NCBI GenBank assembly: GCA_021307315.1
Contig: JAJSPD010000031.1
Coordinates: 434,001-498,000 of the forward strand
DNA length: 64,000 nt
DNA from: Bisporella sp. PMI_857
Lineage: Eukaryota; Ascomycota; Leotiomycetes; Helotiales; Helotiaceae
Direction of reading: 5' to 3'
This document shows, piece after piece, positions 20,174 to 61,844 of this stretch. A program made the position numbers and the translations under genes. The notes under the pieces were generated by a model that saw nothing but the letters and a program-made list of their open reading frames with translations, searched no databases and was not told where the DNA came from. How positions within the stretch are numbered: position 1 is the stretch's first letter; the number at the start of each line of letters is the position of its first letter.

Positions 20174-21547
20174 ATGTCCTTACCTCCCGCTCAGCCTGCG
20201 TATATACTTCGTGGCCACGCAGCTCAGATACACTCCACGTCCTTCATTCGGGGTAACAGTCAGCTTGTGTCGGGAGATGCTGATGGTTGGATCATCATTT
20301 GGAGTATTGCTATCAAGCGTCCCGTTGCAGTCTGGAAGGCTCATGAAGGAGCCATACTGGGAGCGCAGGCTTGGGGCGATGAAAGGTTAATCACGTGAGT
20401 TATTGTCTTTCATCTTGGCTCGGGTTGTAGGCTCTCCATTATGAAATCGATGGGTCTTTCTGGGTAGTCTTGCTTAACTATGCAGAATTTGAGCCTTTGA
20501 CCTTTCTTATGGTGAAATGAAAATGTGAGCAGATTGCACGAATATGTCTAATTGCTTGACTAGTCACGGAAAAGATAATAAGCTCATAGTGTGGAAGTTA
20601 TCTGGTGATGATGAGGCTTCAATGAGCACCGTGCTTCCTGTCGATACGCCACAAGGGCCCTGGAAACAGCCATGGCTTGTCTACGTACTTCATGTGAATA
20701 CAATGAATTTCTGCTCGTTTGCACAGTGTATACCACGGTCGTCTACTTTTCCATCAGATGATACTCAAGTGGATGAGTTGCTGATAGCCGTGCCAAACAC
20801 CATGAGTTCTGAGACTGTATGTTTCATATATTTTATAAATTTCATATTCCTAATATGCTTCAGGTCGACATCTTCCACTTCCCATCGTCTAAGAGAATAC
20901 ATACAGTACCAGGCGATGCATCGATAAAAGGTGGAATGGTGATGGCTGTTTCCATCTTCTACCATCCTCAAAGTACGAACCTGACAGTCATTGCGGGCTA
21001 CGAAAGTGGACATAGCGCTGTCTCGCAGTTTTCCTCTGACACATGGTCTGTCCTATATTCTACAAAATCACACAGCCAGCCAATTCTTTCACTTGACGTC
21101 TCTCCTTCCAAAGACTTTTACCTCACATCGTCAGCTGATGCGGTAGTCGCTAAGCATCCGATCCCAGTATCAGTCGACAGTGTCATCATATCCGTTGATA
21201 ATATGCCACTGAAAACGGTGCAAACGAAGCACTCCGGTCAGCAAGGACTGAGGGTGAGAAACGACGGAAAGATCTTTGCGACTGCAGGATGGGATTCCAA
21301 GGTCCGTGTCTATTCGGGGAAGAGCATGAAAGAGTTGGCTGTTTTGAAGTGGCATAAGGAAGGATGTTATTCAGTAGCCTTTGCAGATGTTGTGGAAGAC
21401 ACAAGTGAAGAAGGCGAAGATAAAGCGCTTGTCACAAGATTGGGCACGATGACCGTCAAAGAGGAGAGGCTATGGAAAGCAAAAACGGCGCATTGGCTCG
21501 CAGTAGGCAGTAAAGATGGCAAGGTTAGCTTATGGGATATCTATTAA
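20174..21547 (+). CDS. ASA1: ASTRA-associated WD40 protein ASA1
   Basis: Asa1 is a WD40-repeat subunit of the ASTRA complex (Tra1/TTT-linked chromatin factor). Exons are 20174-20394, 20564-20816 and 20864-21547, about 385 residues. The N terminus (MSLPPAQPAYILRGHAAQIHS) and the repeat cores SGDADGWIIIWS, GKDNKLIVWKL, FATAGWDSKVRVYSG and LAVGSKDGKVSLWDIY are typical of fungal ASA1. Fusing exons 1 and 2 restores the repeat RLITHGKDNKLIVW. An acidic insert (EDTSEEGEDK) lies between the last two repeats. The start at 20174 is chosen because it begins directly with the first repeat. Confidence 0.88.
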
Positions 21548-21845
21548 GTGAATGAAAGCTTGGTAGAAGAATTCTTCTAGGAGGCTCATAATTGCGGGAT
21601 ACCCAATGACCATCGCCATATTGGAATCATGATTGATTGAGCTCCCAAAGGGTGTGGTTACACCGACACTTGGACCAATCGAACATTGCTCTCTGGTATA
21701 ATCCTAGCACAGCCACCCCAACGACTTTCCACAAGGCTGCTTCGCGACCCAGCATATATACTATAGGCTTTCACTGAGCCTGACATCCTGCAGAGTGTGC
21801 CAGCCTTTCTCCATCTTTCCACTTCTTCATCTGATCCTAAAAATC
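21548..21845 (+). promoter_or_regulatory. Upstream region of the HeLo-like/ankyrin gene with TATA-like box
   Basis: A TATATA string at about 21754-21760 (gcatatatactatagg) lies about 90 bp before the ATG at 21846 and is a reasonable TATA box. Confidence 0.4.
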
Positions 21846-24061
21846 ATGGCCGAGGTCGTAGGGGTGGTCGCAAGCGGTATCGCCGTCGGGACTCTGGGTA
21901 TCAAGGTGATCCAAAGCACCGCGGAGCTAAAAGGTTTCTGGGATAATATCCAAGAAGCACCAGAGGACATCGCAGATCTCTTGTACGAGGCCAAGCTGAT
22001 TGGCGAAGTAATACTCCGTTTCGAAGAGGAAACGAAATGCAGCTCTTCCGTAACCTTTGGACCAGAGCTAGAGAAACTTGCGGCCGATTGCTTACAGCAC
22101 TGTTATGCTGCCTCGGAGAAATTGCGGCTCCTGGCAGAAGATTTAGCGGCTACTTTGAGTAAGAAGACTGGATACCGTCGATTAGTGGCGTCTACAAAGG
22201 TAGTCTTAAAGAAAGACCAGATAAAAAAGTATCGTTCTCGCTTAGAAGGCGCCGTAAGACTATTACATATGTCGAGGCAATGCTACGTAGAGTGAGTAAT
22301 TATTCAAATCGCAGAAGAATCGAACCCAGGTTTTCTATCAAGCCTCTTTAAAGTTCTCATTTTTGAACTCGTTCCTTTCTGACATCGTCTAGAGCACAAC
22401 AACGTCATATATGTTCCGTTTTCTCTCATGTCTTGATGAATGGTTCAAAACCACCACATCTCACTTTAGATGGACCTTCCATACAACAAACAAGTAGTGA
22501 CACAAGCATTTCTCCAGGAGCTAGGCGCTTAATTCAAACTAGTAACATTGTTTCTACAGCACCACCGACCGCATTCAACTGGTTTCGGTACCTTTGCGGA
22601 AAAGCAGTATATAGCGAATATTATGTATCATCTAATGATGCTAAAAATAAGTCAAAAGATAAAGAATATCGGAAATACGCCAGGTTACAATATCGATGGC
22701 CAGGCTGGCTAGCCAACCAAGTCTGGATAACTTCCAGCTACACACAACCCAATATTTGGGATTTCAACATGCGGATATACAATGTCATACCTAGAGATTC
22801 GGTAATTTTTGATTTCATAAAGCAAGGCAATATAGAGGCTATCAAGACACTTTTTAAGAGAAAAGCTGCATCCCCATTTGATAAAAGTGATGAAGATGGT
22901 TGGACTCTTCTTCATGTAAAACTACCCCATATCCTTGTTCTTGTATATACCAACATGCTGACTATCTTTTTCTTGTAGCATGCGGTTTTCCATGGAAATC
23001 TGGCTATTATGCAACTTTTGATTGAAAATGGAGCGAGTACCGATGAACCTGATTTTAATATGGAGTATTGTTCTGCCCGAAAAGATGTAGATGTATGGAC
23101 TAATTCTTATAGATCCCCGTTCAGAAAACTTATTTGGTTTTCTAGTAGTTTAACCTTTTTTCGGAATACACTATCTCCAGTGACTGACATGTTTCGTCTG
23201 CTTATAAATGCTGGGGAGTGCGACTTCTTTGAACCAGATAAGCTACCTATATGGGGCCTACTTTTCTATGGACCCACAAGCTCTCTCGCTCTGTTTCTAG
23301 ATGCATCAATGCAGTCTAATAGAGAAATCCCTTTGCTAGAGAGGCATCGTCTCGCTCTCCTATTGGCTACCTATGATAGGCACAATGCACCTACGCTTAT
23401 CCGAACTGCTTTAGGACACCATCCCTTTGAGTCACTAGAATTAGAGCTTGAGGATAAACATGGCCAAACATTGGTGTCTAATATTATGTTTTCATTACGG
23501 GGATTCGTACAAAGAATAGGACGAAATTCCAATGTTTTAGAGCTTGGAACTAAAAGACTTGATCCCATATATTCAGCAGCAGGCAACATTACTCCCATGG
23601 ACTTTTTAATCCTTTACTGGGTCCCGCTAATTCGAGATTTGGCGAACGCGGGTGCAGATCTTCACCACATTGTTGATGGCCGTAGTACTTTCCTCGATGT
23701 CTGTGAGTTGAAGTACGAGATAAATTGGAGGCTCCACCAAGAGAGCTTACGCCGTTGGCTTCAACTATTGGCAGACGCAGGAATTGATTTGACAAAATTT
23801 GGTAAAGCCGAAGCCACCCTTCTTCAGCAATATGACCAGGAAGGCAACCACAAACGCTTATATAGGTGCTATTGGCAACGCCTGATCGGCTTCTCCTACG
23901 GCGCTCGACCAAGCGATTGGGAATTCTGGTTTGAGGAACATTCGGACAAGTTTGCTGGGCAGTTCTGGTACATGATTGACCACCCTGAGTTGAAGATGCC
24001 AGGAGCGTGGGTCGAAGATGGTGATGATGATGATAATAGCAGTGACGACGATTGGTATTAG
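21846..24061 (+). CDS. HeLo-like N-terminal domain plus ankyrin repeat protein
   Basis: About 683 residues in three exons: 21846-22291, 22393-22915 and 22979-24061. Residues 1-150 (MAEVVGVVASGIAVGTLGIKVIQS...) match the fungal Helo-like N-terminal domain, the membrane-active or signalling module at the head of many fungal NLR-like and incompatibility proteins. A linker of about 130 residues follows without a recognisable NACHT domain (no P-loop seen). Ankyrin units begin near FIKQGNIEAIKTLFKRKAASPFDKSDEDGWTLLH and continue across the second intron as HAVFHGNLAIMQLLIENGAS. Later units are degenerate (LINAGECDFFEPDK; LLADAGIDLTKFG). The C terminus is acidic (DGDDDDNSSDDDWY). All splices keep frame and no internal stop is present, so it looks functional. 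A role in self/non-self recognition is inference. Confidence 0.8.
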
Positions 24062-31104: not shown

Positions 31105-31972
31105 TTACGGCACTTCGCGAATGTCCCAACGTTCCTGTTCCCAGGCTGTAACCGGAGGCACCACCTGCGGTAGCTCTTCCTTCCACGCCTGCGGGTCTGC
31201 CGGAAATGCCTCTTCGTCCTCCGGGGTGCCTATAGTATGTTTCCAGAGGCAAAAGTGGCAGAAGATTGTCCGAGCTTGGTTCTCTTCCTGTGTCTGTGGC
31301 TGTGACTGTGTCTGCTCCAGCTTCCCAAATTTCTCTTCCACCGAGTGGTCTTCCATCAACACCCAGAACCACACATCAGATTGATCAGTGCCGCACTGGG
31401 CGGGGGCCTGAAAGTATTTAAGGCTATCATTCCACATAGTCCACTCCTTGACTTTACGCGGTACCAAGAGGGCGGTAAAGGTCACGCGGCCCTCGATCGT
31501 AGGTGTCGCGCCCTCAAAGGCGTGGTGAAGAGCAAGGAAGCGCGACGACGACAAGGCATAGTCTAAAATTGGGTGCCTTAGTGCTAAGCCAGAGTCAATA
31601 GAGACTTGTGAGTTATCGTTATCGTTATCGTATTCAGGGAGGTTCCTTAGAAACTCTACGCAGGCAGGAGAGGACTGAAAGGCTTTTACGTCTTCTAGCG
31701 TATCCCATTCTACGTCGTGTTACAATGTTATCCAGGACAGATATAGGCAGATGACACTCACCAATGATATAGGCAGCCTGCTCAGGGCGGTCGACCATCC
31801 GTCCTAGAAATACGTTCCCCCGGCAGCCTTGCACTTCCGAAAGGGGGCTGACATAGACATTACCGTAGTCTATAGACCACGTCGGCCACTCCTGCTCCTC
31901 CGGGAGGTAAAACCGTGTCCAGGTAATTACCCCTTTCGTAGTTTGCCGCGCTGTTTGCTTTGTACGAGCCAT
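31105..31972 (-). CDS. Alpha/beta-barrel-like protein with a histone H3 tail-mimic N terminus
   Basis: Two exons, 31972-31762 and 31709-31105, encode 271 residues with no internal stop; the intron is GTGAGT...GTAG. The protein begins MARTKQTARQTTKG. After removal of Met, residues 1-8 (ARTKQTAR) are identical to histone H3, including Lys4; position 9 is Gln instead of Lys. The H3 resemblance then ends, and the rest is not a histone fold. Residues about 50-95 (GNVFLGRMVDRPEQAAYIIE then WDTLEDVKAFQSSPACVEFL) look like a dimeric alpha-beta-barrel (ABM/EthD-like) unit. A second similar unit may lie at about 130-215, ending VWFWVLMEDHSVEEKF. The C terminus is Glu/Gln/Pro-rich. Surrounding DNA is full of RIP-like decay, yet this frame is clean and has normal codons. 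Function unknown; interaction with H3K4 readers or modifiers is inference. Confidence 0.75.
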
Positions 31973-43566: not shown

Positions 43567-46009
43567 CGGCAAATATCTCAAATACCATCATTTTTTTGCC
43601 AAATATCTCATATACCATACTTTTTTTGCCGAATATCTCATATACCACTTCTATGGTATTTCAGATATACGGCAACAAATACATGGTATATGAGATATTT
43701 GGCAACACGCACTGTAAAGCCTGTAATACAGGCGTTATAAGCCTAAATCAATATCATTCTGTCTAACTCTCTATTCTTCAGTTTCCATTCCATATTCTCT
43801 TCCAGACCTTGTAGCGTATCGTAAAAGTAATACAATATCGACCAGATCCTGATTCACAAATATTTCGCTATTGACCTCTGAAAGCTCGCTGTCGCTATCC
43901 AGTTGATCAACCTCCTCTATTTGTATGCCCAATTCTCGATCAAGGCGCTCTTCCTCTTCTTCATCCTCATCCTCTCTATCCTCTCCTTCATCCTCTCCTT
44001 CATCCTCTCCTTCATCATCTCCTTCATCCTCAGATTGTAGCCATTCCCAGGCTCGTTGTCGACGTCCACTAGCAACAGGCTGGTTCGTACAACGACGACG
44101 ATTATGACCCCAATCAAGGCAATTGCCACAGCGCGTTTGCCTTCTATTCCAAGTGCCTTTGCGTATTCGTTTAGATCGAGGTCGACCGATTGACTTTCGT
44201 ACTATAGGAGGTTGAATTGAATTATCGCGGGGTAGGTCTATCATCGATACTGGTAATAATGAACGTCGATAAGTTTTGCGATATTCCTCAGCTGTAAACC
44301 AATCGACAAAATAGTCAATTAGATCAATACGAAGAATCCTTGCAGCTGCAATTGCGTGAGAACAGAGCGATTGAAACTGATAAAAATCTGTACAGTCGCA
44401 AAGCTTTTTATCGAAATCAACCACCCACTTACGGCTTGTTTCTGGATCCTCAACTTGTGCAATACTATTGCTCGAAGGATAAACGCGATATCGATGAGAA
44501 GCTTTCAAATAAGCTTTAAATTTGGCCATAGGTACGTCGGCGAGGCTCTCAGCTTTGCTTCCTTCTGTCTGTCTTTTATACCACGTTTCTAGAGTCGAAA
44601 GATAAATTCCATCTAACAATCGAAGAGAAAGCATCTGGCGATATTTGTTCCAAGCTGAATTTAAAGACTCAACAATATTCGAAGTGTTGTGGCCAAATTG
44701 AGAGTATTGCGAGTAAGCTTTAGTCCAAAGCTTGTTGTCGATATCAGAAAGGTAATTGAACGCGTCGATACTCAATTCTCTTATTTTCATCATTTCAGCT
44801 TGAAACAACTGAGGTGTTTTTGCTTCACATGCTCTCCAGAACAATGGCCTTATTCTATTACCAAATCTTTGCTGTAAGTTATCCGCAATATGCTGACAGC
44901 AATGAAGATGAATAGCGTCAGGAAATAGCTCTGCAACAGCGTTTGCCATTCCTTTCTCACGATCAGAAATAAAAGTATGCTAGCCTTGTAAAGTAACAGG
45001 GAAAGCAAGCTTAAGGTGATGTAAAAACCACCTCCACCAATATTGGTCTTCAACAGGTACTAATCCCCAGGCTAAAAGAACAACTTTCTCGTTAGCGTCG
45101 ATTCCACAGCAGATCATCAATATCATACGATACCGAGATTTTGTATAAGTTCCATCAATAGCAAAGAACTGACGGATATACCTAGAAGCTTTACGAAAAG
45201 GGCCTGGAGCAAAAAAAGCTGCTTGGAATACTCTATCCGCCTGCGTTTGAAGTGCAGCGTAATTGCTTTCGTCGGCTTCTTTGAACCTCTCAATATAGCC
45301 AGGAAACAGCGCAAAAGATTCAGTTTCATCACCATAAAGCTCCTCCAAAACAGCTTGTTTAACGCGGTACGCTTGAAAGTAAGGGATATTGTTGAAAAAT
45401 TGAAGGCGTTCATTCGACTGAATTTGTTTAGGAGTAATATCAGGATTATCAACAATCGACGCTCGATGATAAGGTATTATAAACTTCAAATTATTCGTAT
45501 TTGAAGCTGTGAAGTGATTTGTAAAAAAACAAGTATAAGGTTCCAAGTGAGTTATTACTACGCCTTTCTTCTTAGAATCAACAGCTCTAATTCTGAATTT
45601 GCAAATATTCGCAGTGCGGCATACGATATTGAAGCGTTGTTTGTCGGAATGAGTAGCTTTCCATGATTCAGAATTATTTGCAACAAAATCTTTTATTGCT
45701 TCTTTTGCTAACGTAATATTAGAAAAATTATCACCGACGTGGAGTGCCATAGCTATAATGAAGTTACAAAAGGAAGGATAATCGATAATATACGAATATT
45801 TGTTGTGCGTCAGGTGCTCTAGTCTCTTGGCGCAACGTACGAGTCCTTGAAATACAATATTTCTCATATACCATCGTTTTGTTAATAGGTATCTGAAATA
45901 CCACTGTTTTGCGCCAAGAGACAAATGGTGGTATATGAGATATTCGGCAAAAAAAGTATGGTATATGAGATATTTGGCAAAAAAATGATGGTATTTGAGA
46001 TATTTGCCG
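43567..46009 (-). mobile_element. Mutator-like DNA transposon (MULE), complete
   Basis: A 2443-bp element. The outer 82 bp at each end (43567-43648 and 45928-46009) are perfect inverted repeats. Weaker similarity continues inward to about 140 bp. It is flanked by a perfect 9-bp duplication TTATAAATA (43558-43566 and 46010-46018), the size expected for MULEs. Each inverted repeat consists of three near-identical units of about 30 bp with core GGTATATGAGATATTYGGC separated by A7/T7 runs. It carries one transposase gene on the minus strand. The perfect ends and duplication indicate a recent insertion. Confidence 0.93.
43771..45750 (-). pseudogene. MULE transposase with a single in-frame stop
   Basis: The frame runs from about 45750 (MALHVGDNFSNITLAKEAIK; starts at 45867 or within the inverted repeat are also open) to 43771, about 659 codons. 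It is interrupted only by TAG at 44982-44980 (LQG-stop-HTFISDREKG). Domains in order: an N-terminal FAR1-like domain; the MULE DDE core with first Asp in FFAIDGTYTKSRYRM, second Asp in FISDREKGM, and the CQH motif in IHLHCCQHIADN. Then come a SWIM zinc finger (CDCTDFYQFQSLCSH), an acidic stretch, and a CCHC zinc knuckle (CGNCLDWGHNRRRC). The stop fits CAG-to-TAG. Apart from it the gene seems complete, so the copy was active not long ago. Confidence 0.88.
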
Positions 46010-46018
46010 TTATAAATA
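46010..46018. repeat. MULE target-site duplication, right
   Basis: TTATAAATA, identical to 43558-43566. Confidence 0.9.
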
Positions 46019-47518
46019 CGGGCAGTTGGCAGAGATGAACGACATTTCAACACATGCCAGCGCTGTAACGAGAATGCAGGTTGTGCGTGACACAGTCCTG
46101 GCGAACCTGCCTCCCAAACCTACCATTAGACTAGTTACGTGAACGCTCTTCTCTCACACCTCACTCTTAATCAAGACTACGTTCTCGCTTAGCTGTCCAC
46201 CATGTATTTTAATTGCATCGCGAGAGAGGATCCTTCCTTCCGCAGCTAAAAATTCTTGTAATAAGCATTTACTACAAGTGTCTTTGTGAGACCCTTTTGC
46301 ACAGCCGTTATTACATATACGTATCTGGGCTTGAGCAGTCGACATTTAACGCGAGCTCCATAACCTTAACCTATGTTTATAACATATTCCGAGCGTGATA
46401 ACTAATATTTAAACAGAAGTTTAATAGCTGTTATGGTTGCTAAGATAACACACCAAGAAAGCAGTTGACCATTCTTTGTAAGGCTTGTTTCATAAATTTC
46501 AAATTCATATATGTCACCTCTGTCAGGGACTGCTTGTCACAAACACTGTCGAGAGGTTTTGTTTGAATGGTCACCAAGGGGATTAGCCAGCCATCAGCTT
46601 CACTCACATATAACGCCACAACGATATGGAAAAGGTGAGAGGTGAAGATTGTCTAGTGAAGCCTCTCACTAACAAGCAATAAGTTGCGCCTGCTTCAAAG
46701 GCGGAACAATCCTGTTTCAGAAATCCTGAAATAGACCACCCTTTGCGGATAGTCTGGGGCTTTCATTTCAAAACGGCCAATGATCCAAACAGCAAACGTG
46801 GCAATTGGGTAGAAACTGGCGGTGTGAAGTATTGCTTCGGCACTGATGCAGCTGAAAATGAAGAGCGCGTCAAACCAAAACCGGGTATTCAAATTCTGTA
46901 GTATAGCTCCAAAGCTAGAAGAAACCAGTGTGTAAACAAGGGCCTAATAAATTGAGGCTCTCTCTCCCTCTCCATGTGGCCACGCGTATTGCATGTCAGG
47001 CATGGCAAAGCAAACGAGAAGCCACTGCTGTTCTAAATACCATGGGCAGCATTGTTGACCGCAGATCATCATGCCAAGGGCTTTATCACAATGAGGTACA
47101 AATGTAAAAGTCGAAAATCATTACGTTGATTCCGGTGCCTATGTTATGTGCTTTTGCAAGCTGAAGTAGCTGCTAGTCGATATCGACAAGTAGGTGAGAA
47201 TGCCTAGATGTCCACGAGCAGCATAAGGCGCAACAAAGGCTTCTCGCCAACAAGTGTGGAGGAAAGCTAAACCAAGCCCAAAAAATCGGTTCAGAAATAG
47301 CACTCACACTTTAAACATATGCACACTTTTCGTAAAAGTGCCGCCTGCGCCACGGATCCACTAGATAAAAAAGAAAGGGCCACGAAGTAAAGAGATCACC
47401 GGAGATTGCCCTCCACTTGGAAAAGCCATCGTTGATAGAGATGCATCCATTATATTACATTATACTTGTACATACTTATACAAATCTTAGCACATAGATC
47501 ATAAGCATACATATACAT
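46019..47518. other. Island-to-core boundary, no supported gene
   Basis: After the CBM6 remnant ends (about 46100) no coding sequence is supported. A 63-codon minus frame at 46154-46345 with four Cys is unrecognised. Gene-dense core sequence resumes at 47519. Confidence 0.45.
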
Positions 47519-57993: not shown

Positions 57994-60900
57994 TCACTTT
58001 CGTGGTGTTTCTGGAACGTCCCAAATCGAATCATCCCCCGGTTTCTTCTCTTGCTTGATCGGCTTCCACTCGTTAGCTGACTTTGGCACACCTTGATCAA
58101 TTCCCGATGTAGCACCAAACGGTATAGCAGAAGTAGAAGTAAAGACTGGCAGGCCCCCTTTCTTCATGTTGGCTGGAGTCGAGGTATTTGGAGGAAGCCA
58201 TTTGAAGGAATCAGGCTGTACCGTCGTGCTTGCTGCCGGGCCCTCGGGTTGATATGGGATGAAGATATCCGCTCCAGATGTTGTCGGTGAAATTGTAGCT
58301 GAGTCAAATCGCATTTCTGGAGGCGAGCTCGGAGGTAGAGGTATCTCGGTTGCACCGTGAACGTCAGCAGGAACCGTTTGTGGTAATGTGGGTACGGGAG
58401 GTACTGCGGGGGTATTGTACGGTGACAGTTGTGGTTCTACACTGGAAGGATGGTCGGACCGAGATAAATGAGCATCAGAGCGAGGGATAGTGTCAACAGA
58501 ATTTCCATTCAAAGAAGATCCTGACCCGCCTGGAATGGCAACTTCTGCAGTGCTCTCTGGAGTGGGTTCAGCCGCACGTGTAGCTTTTGCTGCAAGCTGG
58601 GCTTTCTCTCGCGCTTCTCGTTGTGCCTTTGTCGTTAGACTCAATTTTGTAATCTTCTTGGTTTCCGGTTTCGCCTGCTGTGCATTCCCTTGGCCCTGAG
58701 TCTTGGTAGTCAGGCTTGCATTCTTCATACCAGACGTCAAGGCTTCCATATCAGGATCACGACTGGCTGAGCGCTCGACTGAGGGTAGAACAGTGCTGTT
58801 GGATCTTGAAGCTGGCAAAATTGGCGGATGCTCTTTGGCTGGAGCACCTGTATCGGTCAAGGGTGACTTTCGGCGAACACGAGTAGTCTTGGCTGTTTCG
58901 TTTCTAGGCTGGACAGGAGCTCTGGTCTTCTTTACCACAACAGGAGGTATCGAAGAGCCACGAGAACTCATTGATGAGTCTGGCCTTGCATTATGGGAAG
59001 CACTTGGACGAACTGGTAGAGGCGGCAGATTAGATGACGGTACTCTGCTATGGCTGAAAACGGATGGAGCTTCAGAAACGACAGAACCAGAATTGGATGC
59101 AACACTGAGACGCCGCGATGATTGTTGTGTGGATTGTGTGTATCCTGGTTCTGCTGCGGGTGTCGTGCTTCTAGAAAGAGCCTTATCAGTGGCCAGGACC
59201 CCAGGCCCAGCCACAGTCTTCCGACGGTTCGCTTTGGGAGCAGGCTTTTTGACGTCAACACTCTCCACGAGCGGCTTAACAGGTTTTCGAGTTCTTAGAG
59301 CCATGCGGCTAGCTGGCGGCTCGGGCTGCTCTGATGTTGAAGCTACTATAGGTGTAGTAAGTATAGACTGACGATCTCTTCTGACCTTCGTAGCCTCGGC
59401 TGAGAGATCTTCGGGTCTGCAACTCTGAGTTTGTCTGTCTGTCGGTATCAGGAGCTTGCTTAGTTGATGAGCAGCTACAGTCCAATCGACCTCAGGGGGA
59501 GGTGGGGTAGGAGCTCGAGGAATAATGGGTCGAGGGGAGCCATTGCCGTGGTTGGACATATTAGACACATTACGTCGGGCTGTGGGAGAGGCGACTTTGG
59601 CTATGAAGGATTGGGTGGGTGAAGAGTAAGTGGGAGGTGGCCCTTCTCTTGGTTTCTTTGGCTCGGGTAATGGTGTAGGGGAGATCGTTGTATCAAGTTG
59701 TTCGAGCTGTGGTAAAGACCACCAGAGGGGATCATACGGCACCGTGCCGGCTGTTACTGGTTCGTCCTCTTTCTTAAGCCCGTCAAAGGTACCAATCTTG
59801 TTGCCCATCTCATAAGCAAGTCCGTTGATCTTAAACTCTTTTTTGATGGCGATCGGATCGCCACCAGCAAGACCGCTGAGATGACTAAAGACTCCTGTAC
59901 ATAGGGCACGATCGCTATAGCCACCTTCGAGGACGCTAATGATTCTTCCTTCGACGGCGGAGCCTTCTTCGGCCGCAATCTTAACCACATCTCGCGTTAA
60001 ACGAGCATAAAACTCAGTCGGAACATTGACTTTGTGTCGTTGCATTCCATCACTTTCCCACTCGCTGGCATCAAATCCTGCAGACAAGAATATCGCACCT
60101 TTGGGTTTAGGTCCATTGGGTAAGAGCCGAAGGCGGTCAGTCTGAGCGCGGAGAAAATTGCGTGTTTTCTCTAATAAGATTGAGTACTTGGTATCATATA
60201 ACTCCCAGAACTCCGCTTCACTCTTCCATGGCTGTAGATGGACATTCCATATGCTCTGCCCATGAGCGTTCTCGATGCAGAGACTTGCCATTTTGACCTT
60301 TTCTTCGTCTCCCATCTCACAAGGGCTATAAATCACACCAAATTAGCAAATTTGAATGTCATATACTACGGGATCTGCATAGTTGGCCTAGGAAATTTAG
60401 CTTCTCGACTTACTAAGAATTGATATCGTGCAGGCTGAAGTAGCCAATAGAAGTCTTCTTCCAGGGCAACGCATTCTTGGGTAGAGTTGTAGCACGGCGA
60501 TTGTGTTCCCATGCAATAGCCTGAGAGCCATCACCATGATGAAGATCAAAGTCAATAATGGCGGCATGAGTCAGACCATGAGTCAATGCTGCATGGGATA
60601 TACCAACATGAACATTGTTCAACCAGCAAAATCCGGAAGGATAACTAGCGGAGCAATGATGACCAGGTGGCCTGATAGCCACAAAAGTCCTATGCGGTCC
60701 TTTGCCGCTTGCAGAACCCTGAAATACAGCATCAACTCCTTCGCATACAGCTCCCAAAGCACCTTCCATAGCATTGAGAGACTCTGAGCATAGATAAAGA
60801 TCGCCTTCATGGAATGCGGCGTCAGCTTGATCAGAGCTTCGTCGTTTTTCGGGTCGAACTAGCTCCTTCCCATTCATAGCTAATTTTGCCTCTGCGCTAT

Positions 60901-61844
60901 CGCACATGATCTTTAATTCCTCCATCCACTTCGTTCCATGAACATTAGTTACTGCCTGAGAGGAGAGATCAAGGCGCCTGGTGGTTTTGCGGATTTTGAA
61001 TGGCGTGGTAGGAATATCGGATGGATTCTTCTGAGGATGAAGAGGGTATTGCCCTCCAGAATGACGGTCCCCGAGTCGTACATAGGCGACTGACATGCCT
61101 AATATGCTAGCATGAATTCTTTCCGGTCTCTCAACTATGGTACTTAGGGATTGCTTAGAAGTTCGGGGTCTCGAGTATCTATGACCATAACAAGAATCAT
61201 GAAGAATGACTATTGTATCCGCAGGACGAGTCTCATCCTCCTTTTCATGCAGCTCTAGTTCTTTCTTGAAATGGTTGCTAGCAATCGATTCAGCAGTGTG
61301 CTGCGGCTTATCCTCCACCGCATCCTCAATCTCTGAGAGAGGTGATTTACCTAGAGCGCAGAGTTAGTATTGGTATGTTCTATGATTGTAACAGTCTCGC
61401 GGCTCGTTCAACGAGTAGCAATATCTTGTGGACCAACTCACCAACCACAGCAGAGCCATTATAAAAAGATGCTGAAGAAGACCGCCGGGATGGGGATGAT
61501 GGCACTCGAGATTGATTTCCGATTCCATGCAGAGAATTCATTGAAGCTTTCCGGAGAAGTGCAGGTGAAGAAGAACGTGTGTCGATGCTCATAGCACTAG
61601 GACTTCGGTGGAGAGGGCTTCGTGGTGGTATTCTACCATTTGGCGACGAGGTTCTCGCGGGGCTATTTCGTCGTCCAAATGCTCGAGGTGAGGAAGGCTG
61701 CGATGATAATGGCAAGGCTGTCGCTGAGGCAGCGTTGATAGATAGGTTCTTAAGTGAATGCGACAACGATTTAGTTGTTGATGGTGGCAACGGAGCGCTT
61801 TCGATTTCCACCCTCCCTATACCGTCTCGAGATGGTTGTGCCAT
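57994..61844 (-). CDS. hosB: Hos3/HosB-type histone deacetylase
   Basis: A class II-like, Zn-dependent histone deacetylase of the fungal Hos3 group. Exons 61844-61442, 61350-60414 and 60325-57994 give about 1223 residues. The N-terminal about 150 residues are Ser/Pro-rich and disordered. The catalytic domain runs from about 165 (DTIVILHDSCYGHRYSRPRT) to about 640. Active-site motifs are RPPGHHCSASYPSGFCWLNN, IIDFDLHHGDGSQAI (metal Asp and His) and IFLSAGFDASEWE (second metal Asp), then LEGGYSDRAL. The last 560 residues are low-complexity, rich in Pro, Ser, Thr and basic residues, typical of Pezizomycotina HosB. The second intron splits the conserved SLHDINSYPCEMGD segment. The symbol follows Aspergillus naming. 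Confidence 0.9.

Follow-up and report, generated by a model that had tools for sequence, protein, structure and literature searches.

The H3-tailed gene and its surroundings

The window, that is, the whole 64-kb stretch of DNA analysed here (G000:C210:434001-498000), belongs to the 55.6-Mb genome (284 contigs) of Bisporella sp. PMI_857, which is placed in the Leotiomycetes by the lineage of its genus. On its minus strand, at 31105..31972, lies the gene of a 271-residue H3-tailed ABM-like protein, as delimited by our reading of the sequence and by the public model P0001 (B0O99DRAFT_742855). Splice reading on this strand divides the gene into exon 1 (31762..31972), an intron of 52 nt (31710..31761, GTGAGT...GTAG) that is the same in P0001, and exon 2 (31105..31709), which includes the stop codon TAA. 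When the intron (31761-31710) is spliced out, the minus-strand frame that opens at ATG 31972 and closes at TAA 31107-31105 encodes exactly 271 residues, and P0001, a 'hypothetical protein' of Bisporella sp. PMI_857, is identical to the window protein across 271/271 residues. Upstream of ATG 31972 there is no in-frame ATG up to the upstream in-frame stop, which is 16 codons off.

The protein begins with MARTKQTARQTTKG, in the layout M-ARTKQTAR-QTTKG. Its start codon and the following eight codons (31946..31972, minus strand), marked out by the sequence and by conservation among homologues, correspond to histone H3 1-8 (ARTKQTAR), so that residues 2-9 of the protein equal H3 1-8, while the H3 K9 position is occupied by Gln; T11 and G13 of H3 likewise match by position. 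Both the exact H3 1-8 start on a spliced 271-residue protein and the replacement of Lys9 by Gln had been claimed in the initial annotation, and at the level of the conceptual translation and of the identical public gene model the former is confirmed, the latter being seen directly at the K9 position. Behind the tail, a linker of residues 10-14 (QTTKG; 31931..31945, minus strand) was delimited by site rates, and the AlphaFold2 model and VIA-align then place, on the same strand and with approximate limits, a predicted first ABM-like (ferredoxin-like) half of residues ~15-95, which is split by the intron (31636..31930), and a predicted second ABM-like half of residues ~126-271 (31108..31545).

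The remainder of the protein had been likened to a dimeric alpha-beta barrel and not to a histone, and this is supported by the AlphaFold2 model, which is of the tandem alpha/beta barrel type with the dimeric alpha-beta-barrel (ABM-like) fold, and by the absence of a histone Pfam match. The window protein matched 0 Pfam families at E<=1, neither a histone fold domain nor ABM (PF03992) being found at that threshold, and by sequence family and by predicted fold it is no histone. Among its relatives, 35/62 match Pfam ABM at E<=0.1 (best 1.7e-5); since the window protein itself has no such match, it is named here as having an ABM-like fold and not as an ABM member. The family profile found no convincing relative by sequence in the PDB, the best hit being the putative ABM protein 3gz7 (E 0.023). 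After VIA-align had re-ranked 1000 Foldseek candidates, the tandem ABM-fold proteins 5f9p (anthrone oxidase-like) and 9kdp PenE were aligned over ranges that start at model residue 11, behind the tail. Residues 36 and 40 of the window protein are both Y, and at these positions 40/62 and 52/62 of the aligned relatives, respectively, have H.

The scan of 20 window frames against Pfam gave 14 that match a family at E<=0.01 and 6 that match none, the families including Exo84, GPAT, RNase P p29, WD40, a transcription factor, MULE transposase, peptidase M28, HDAC-type, TGT and others; since the 20 frames have no common theme, a functional gene cluster was rejected. Two adjacent frames at 43774-46119 (minus strand), with MULE transposase and MuDR DNA-binding matches, are apparently a broken Mutator-like element, and at 20813-24058 (plus strand) a WD40-repeat frame is followed by further open frames, perhaps a degraded repeat-protein gene. 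At 57997-61363 (minus strand), two frames with histone deacetylase domain matches lie ~26 kb from the H3-tailed gene, and the closeness of this histone deacetylase-type chromatin gene is probably a coincidence.

Frequency and conservation of the H3-like start

Judged by base composition, both strands of the 55.6-Mb genome together should contain 0.0026 degenerate MARTKQTA starts, but 6 were observed and the reversed-pattern control gave 0 occurrences; the match is therefore far beyond chance, which bears out the earlier statement that a nine-residue match at the start codon is hard to get by chance. Three of these six starts belong to histone H3-type genes (the canonical H3 on C35 and a divergent H3-like pair, near-identical to each other, on C3 and C221); the other three belong to non-histone genes, which are the window gene and those for an F-box protein (C135) and a DUF7025-AAA ATPase (C35). 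With a relaxed pattern (A1, R2 or S2, K4, A7, then a codon that begins with MR), 22 sites were found against ~5.5 expected, with 0 in the reversed control. Five of the 22 correspond to the paralogue of the window gene and to the exact tails in H3, the window gene itself, the F-box gene and the AAA gene, and among the other 17, 5 have an in-frame stop within the match; the 12 that are translated were scored as single open frames from ATG (10 of <55 residues, the others of 68 and ~150 residues) and were counted neither for nor against.

The divergent genes on C3 and C221 (G000:C3:123896-124397, minus strand; G000:C221:118957-119467, plus strand) are near-identical copies that start with MARTKQTATKSARKPSAKTPAK and differ in repeat length. 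At G000:C274:501080-501187 (L019:279-2882, plus strand), an open frame of 867 residues has within it a near-copy of H3 2-30 (RTKQTARISTGGKAPRRQIASKAARKSAPP), with an acidic stretch behind it, and this frame has no Pfam match at E<=0.1.

The homologue search, which finds only proteins with shared exact 5-residue words, passed 95/331 candidates. Of these, the 68 with a WTRF anchor behind the tail were counted, including a few truncated models (P0025, P0061, P0068) taken as they stand, and the 27 without the anchor near the start were left out; 62/68 were aligned, with P0034, P0068, P0071, P0075, P0089 and P0095 omitted as partial or extended. Among the 68 readable homologues, 60 start with MAR, 42 with MARTK, 22 with MARTKQTA and 16 with MARTKQTAR, and A1, R2 and K4 are jointly present in 55; the consensus of the 62 aligned rows reads MARTKQTAR and becomes variable after it. 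Exact tails occur in Bisporella (Leotiomycetes), Chaetomium globosum (Sordariomycetes) and Aspergillus carlsbadensis (Eurotiomycetes), and the tail is lost in three Beauveria relatives (MVRPRGKYR, MVISRGKKR and MGRLPGKRR). To the question raised in the initial annotation, whether the ARTKQTAR start is conserved among homologues, the answer is thus yes, in three fungal classes; the case named there as speaking against mimicry, orthologs without the H3-like residues, does not apply to most homologues but does apply in part, as 26/68 have no MARTK start and some lineages have lost the tail. The paralogue of the window gene (P0006; G000:C129:10670-11579, minus strand, on a 19.5-kb contig) starts with MARTKATARKTPAK, with K9 present and without Q5.

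On a tree built without the tail columns, the 14/62 rows with 8/8 tails are spread across numerous clades that lie apart, on either side of the midpoint, and the state 'at least 7 of 8', found in 27 rows, needs 16 changes, a count that does not separate gain from loss as the tree has no inferred root. On this rootless tree, the many clades with 8/8 tails and the 16 changes suggest, as the simplest reading, a full tail of old origin that was eroded repeatedly.

Site rates, estimated on the tail-free topology and used to judge selection in place of dN/dS, were lowest in the tail at A1 (0.18), R2 (0.21) and K4 (0.31), all within the slowest 11-21% of columns, followed by T3 (0.66) and by Q5 and A7 (0.84-0.86), with T6 (1.04) and R8 (1.00) about average. 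The six columns after the tail (residues 10-15) had rates of 2.64, 1.66, 2.93, 0.94, 2.92 and 0.87, so that the linker columns 10, 12 and 14, the first of which occupies the H3 K9 place, are among the fastest. The tail is therefore more conserved among homologues than the neighbouring linker, its mean site rate (not dN/dS) being 0.64, compared with 1.99 in residues 10-15 and 0.94 in the remaining columns, and since the homologues conserve the copy, it has likely been kept by selection. Mere basic charge was rejected as the conserved property, because R2 and K4 are rarely swapped for the charge equivalent (position 2 is R in 62 and K in 2 of the 68; position 4 is K in 55 and R in 4), whereas position 8 exchanges R and K (42 and 16 of 68). 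At the K9 position, 6 of the 68 homologues have Lys and 29 have Arg, and past residue 8 neither the consensus nor the site rates show any conserved H3-like sequence in the ABM family. The proposal of a mimic that keeps the K4 region without K9 is thus borne out in sequence, 62/68 homologues being without K9.

The same start on unrelated proteins and its origin

The two unrelated genes of the Bisporella sp. PMI_857 genome that also start with MARTKQTARKST were found by genome pattern search and assigned by Pfam; the F-box gene lies at G000:C135:209332 (L025, plus strand; family P0096-P0158) and the DUF7025-AAA ATPase gene at G000:C35:336613 (L024, minus strand; family P0162-P0238). The F-box family comprises 63 matches, of which 33 were chosen for a visible MAR- or RTKQTAR-type start, the remaining 30 including models that lack the N-terminal part and at least two that begin differently (P0139, P0144, MSQSN). 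Among the 33 tails picked in this way, and the fractions hold only among such starters, H3 1-17 is mostly kept (R2 33/33, R8 32/33, S10 32/33, A15 32/33, P16 31/33, R17 31/33; K4 27/33, K9 21/33), and the acetylation-site lysines K14 (5/33) and K18 (4/33) are mostly missing. In 6/33 of them K4 is R or N, and K4 itself may therefore not be the residue read there. The F-box tail is H3-like to about H3 A21, beyond the H3 exon junction.

In the AAA family, a MARTKQTAR start was found in 8/77 matches, a low count that is due partly to models without N termini and partly to a labile tail; among the 8, two distant members (25-26% identity) carry MARTKQTARKSTGG, and in the DUF7025-AAA ATPase an acidic stretch lies immediately behind MARTKQTARKST. 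A metagenome protein of 324 residues, P0161, starts with MARTKQTARKSTGG / MARTKQTARKSTGGPAPRKR and has no Pfam match at E<=0.01; it is possibly a fourth kind of H3-tailed protein. An H3 start on unrelated proteins, with a family-specific absence of modifiable lysines, is hard to explain by descent alone.

Two explanations that give the start no function of its own have to be weighed against these data. That it is a chance resemblance in one strain can hardly be credited at all: three of the 6 starts observed against 0.0026 expected (reversed control 0) are non-histone, the tail is conserved in the family, and three unrelated protein families carry it, so that a chance match was rejected on the genome counts and on the conservation in homologues. 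It is also quite improbable that the start is a captured first exon of H3 that has been passed on by descent and is gradually eroding, with no function in itself. In the canonical H3 gene the first intron interrupts codon 8 (phase 1), leaving exon 1 to encode MARTKQTA and a single base of R8. The ABM family's conserved block stops at this exon-1 boundary, which is a hint of exon capture, to which the degraded tails in many homologues can be added. However, an intron at the H3 junction is absent from both the window gene and its paralogue, and only 2/8 codons equal those of the genome's own H3, which indicates that silent sites have turned over and the residues have stayed; the capture of an H3 5' exon by this gene, raised in the initial annotation together with the codon comparison, is therefore not supported as a recent event. 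Moreover, relaxed decay does not predict that the slowest columns A1, R2 and K4 stand beside some of the fastest, and the F-box tail continues beyond the junction. An H3 exon may have been captured long ago and then have come under selection.

A proposed detached H3 tail for readers of the K4 end

Based on these findings, we consider it reasonably probable that the N terminus, which copies H3 1-8 and is kept as a copy by the homologues, is under selection and acts as a detached H3 tail that occupies readers of the K4 tail. The presence of the same start in some relatives from three classes and in two unrelated proteins suggests that, through this tail, the carrier proteins likely engage factors whose usual ligand is the histone tail. 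An initiator Met is as a rule cleaved off before Ala; the H3-like sequence stands directly behind the start Met of a non-histone protein, and the MA- start implies that loss of the initiator Met would expose a free Ala1-Arg2-Thr3-Lys4 end as in H3, with ARTKQTARQTTKG as the mature N-terminal peptide. The predicted tandem ABM-like barrel would carry this tail on a short variable linker, and the free end could bind in PHD-type pockets that recognise H3 by its first five residues. By analogy, the most likely target would be the first PHD finger of a KDM5/Jarid-type H3K4 demethylase, followed by a demethylase of the LSD1 type. Lacking K9, the tail would go unnoticed by the K9 methylation/HP1 system. 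The barrel might in this way be carried to, or compete for, a KDM5-type complex, and inhibition, activation or recruitment are all conceivable.

In KDM5A, PHD1 is described as recognising chiefly residues 1 to 5 of H3 and as requiring an unmodified R2; it does not bind an N-acetylated peptide and responds modestly or not at all to marks on R8 and K9, and a 10-mer is long enough both to bind and to stimulate the demethylase allosterically (PMC6327041). By the same analogy, N-terminal acetylation of Ala would abolish PHD1 binding. In the Bisporella genome, a PHD match (the best of 19) and a PLU-1 match fall in one 904-residue open frame on C224, a domain content as expected for a KDM5 demethylase, and a gene on C1 with SWIRM, amine oxidase and HMG-box domains is of the LSD1 type. 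The requirements of KDM5A PHD1 fit the conservation profile of the tail and KDM5- and LSD1-type genes are present, and therefore K4 readers are favoured, with KDM5 first, although KDM5 is ranked above other readers by analogy with KDM5A.

Two other functions were considered. The tail could be a SNAG-type LSD1 hook, a pseudo-substrate in an LSD1-CoREST-like cleft that recruits or inhibits the demethylase, which we regard as unlikely. R8 presumably matters for LSD1, and position 8 is basic in 58/68 homologues (R 42, K 16); the genome has the LSD1-type gene mentioned above, and the SNAG domain of Snail1 is described as mimicking the H3 tail and recruiting LSD1 (PMC12612597). The strongest conservation is, however, at A1, R2 and K4, with T6 to R8 only about average, and the substrate lysine K4 is kept as Lys, so that the tail could itself be an LSD1 substrate. 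SNAG sequences, for their part, are not known to be ARTK copies. A histone-type nuclear import signal acting via the H3 importin route is very improbable. The tail is basic, and H3 1-28 is reported to direct nuclear import in yeast, but there Kap123 reads H3 K14 and K23, alanine at either of which reduces affinity (PMC5677370). In the mature window protein, positions 14 and 23 are occupied by Val and Pro, so that the lysines of a Kap123-type import signal are absent and this signal was rejected. The ABM family is also without conserved H3-like sequence beyond residue 8, the long F-box tail has K14 in 5/33 only, and an import signal would leave the exact A1-R2-x-K4 unexplained.

Histone mimicry has mostly been discussed for viruses and a few animal regulators. 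The H3-like tail of influenza NS1 is also a histone-like tail on a non-histone protein, but it is C-terminal and viral, whereas that of the window protein is N-terminal, cellular and found in three fungal classes. The H3 mimic of Swi6/HP1 is internal and tied to K9 reading, whereas the H3-tailed ABM-like family is mostly without K9 and keeps the K4 end. The SNAG mimic is N-terminal but looser and fused to zinc-finger transcription factors, in contrast to the exact residues 1-8 on a predicted ABM-like barrel. In fission yeast, the auto-inhibitory H3 mimic of Swi6/HP1 is reported to lie within a fungal protein (PMC7192584), and the SNAG factors Snail1 and GFI1, which are described as carrying an H3-tail mimic on an unrelated protein and recruiting LSD1 (PMC12612597), make it known that H3 mimicry can recruit chromatin enzymes; the window protein is likewise non-histone. 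Among the matches listed from the open-licence PMC literature on H3 and histone mimicry, as seen in titles and abstract starts, there was no fungal protein family with an H3 N-terminal tail, which is weak evidence of novelty since the subscription literature lay mostly outside this search. By its title, the work of Chen et al. 2021 (Biochem J 478:1943) reportedly concerns H3 N-terminal mimics that engage a methyl-effector network, in human proteins; we know of no report of such mimics in fungi or on ABM, F-box or AAA scaffolds.

More tentatively, and with slightly less than even confidence, we propose that filamentous ascomycetes repeatedly mounted the H3 N terminus on unrelated proteins, in a single genome on an ABM-like barrel, an F-box protein and a DUF7025-AAA ATPase, and that these endogenous, mark-stripped soluble tails (K9 in the one case; K14 and K18 in another) jointly steer or titrate the readers and erasers of H3K4 methylation. 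The exact, genome-encoded N-terminal copy of H3 spans three classes of fungi and three scaffolds unrelated to each other, and two of the families lack particular modifiable lysines. Provided that they do bind, these would be natural H3 tails unable to take the missing marks, and could serve as reagents that separate K4 reading from K9 and K14 signalling; they would also represent a possible way for fungi to tune KDM5, LSD1 or COMPASS activity without touching chromatin.
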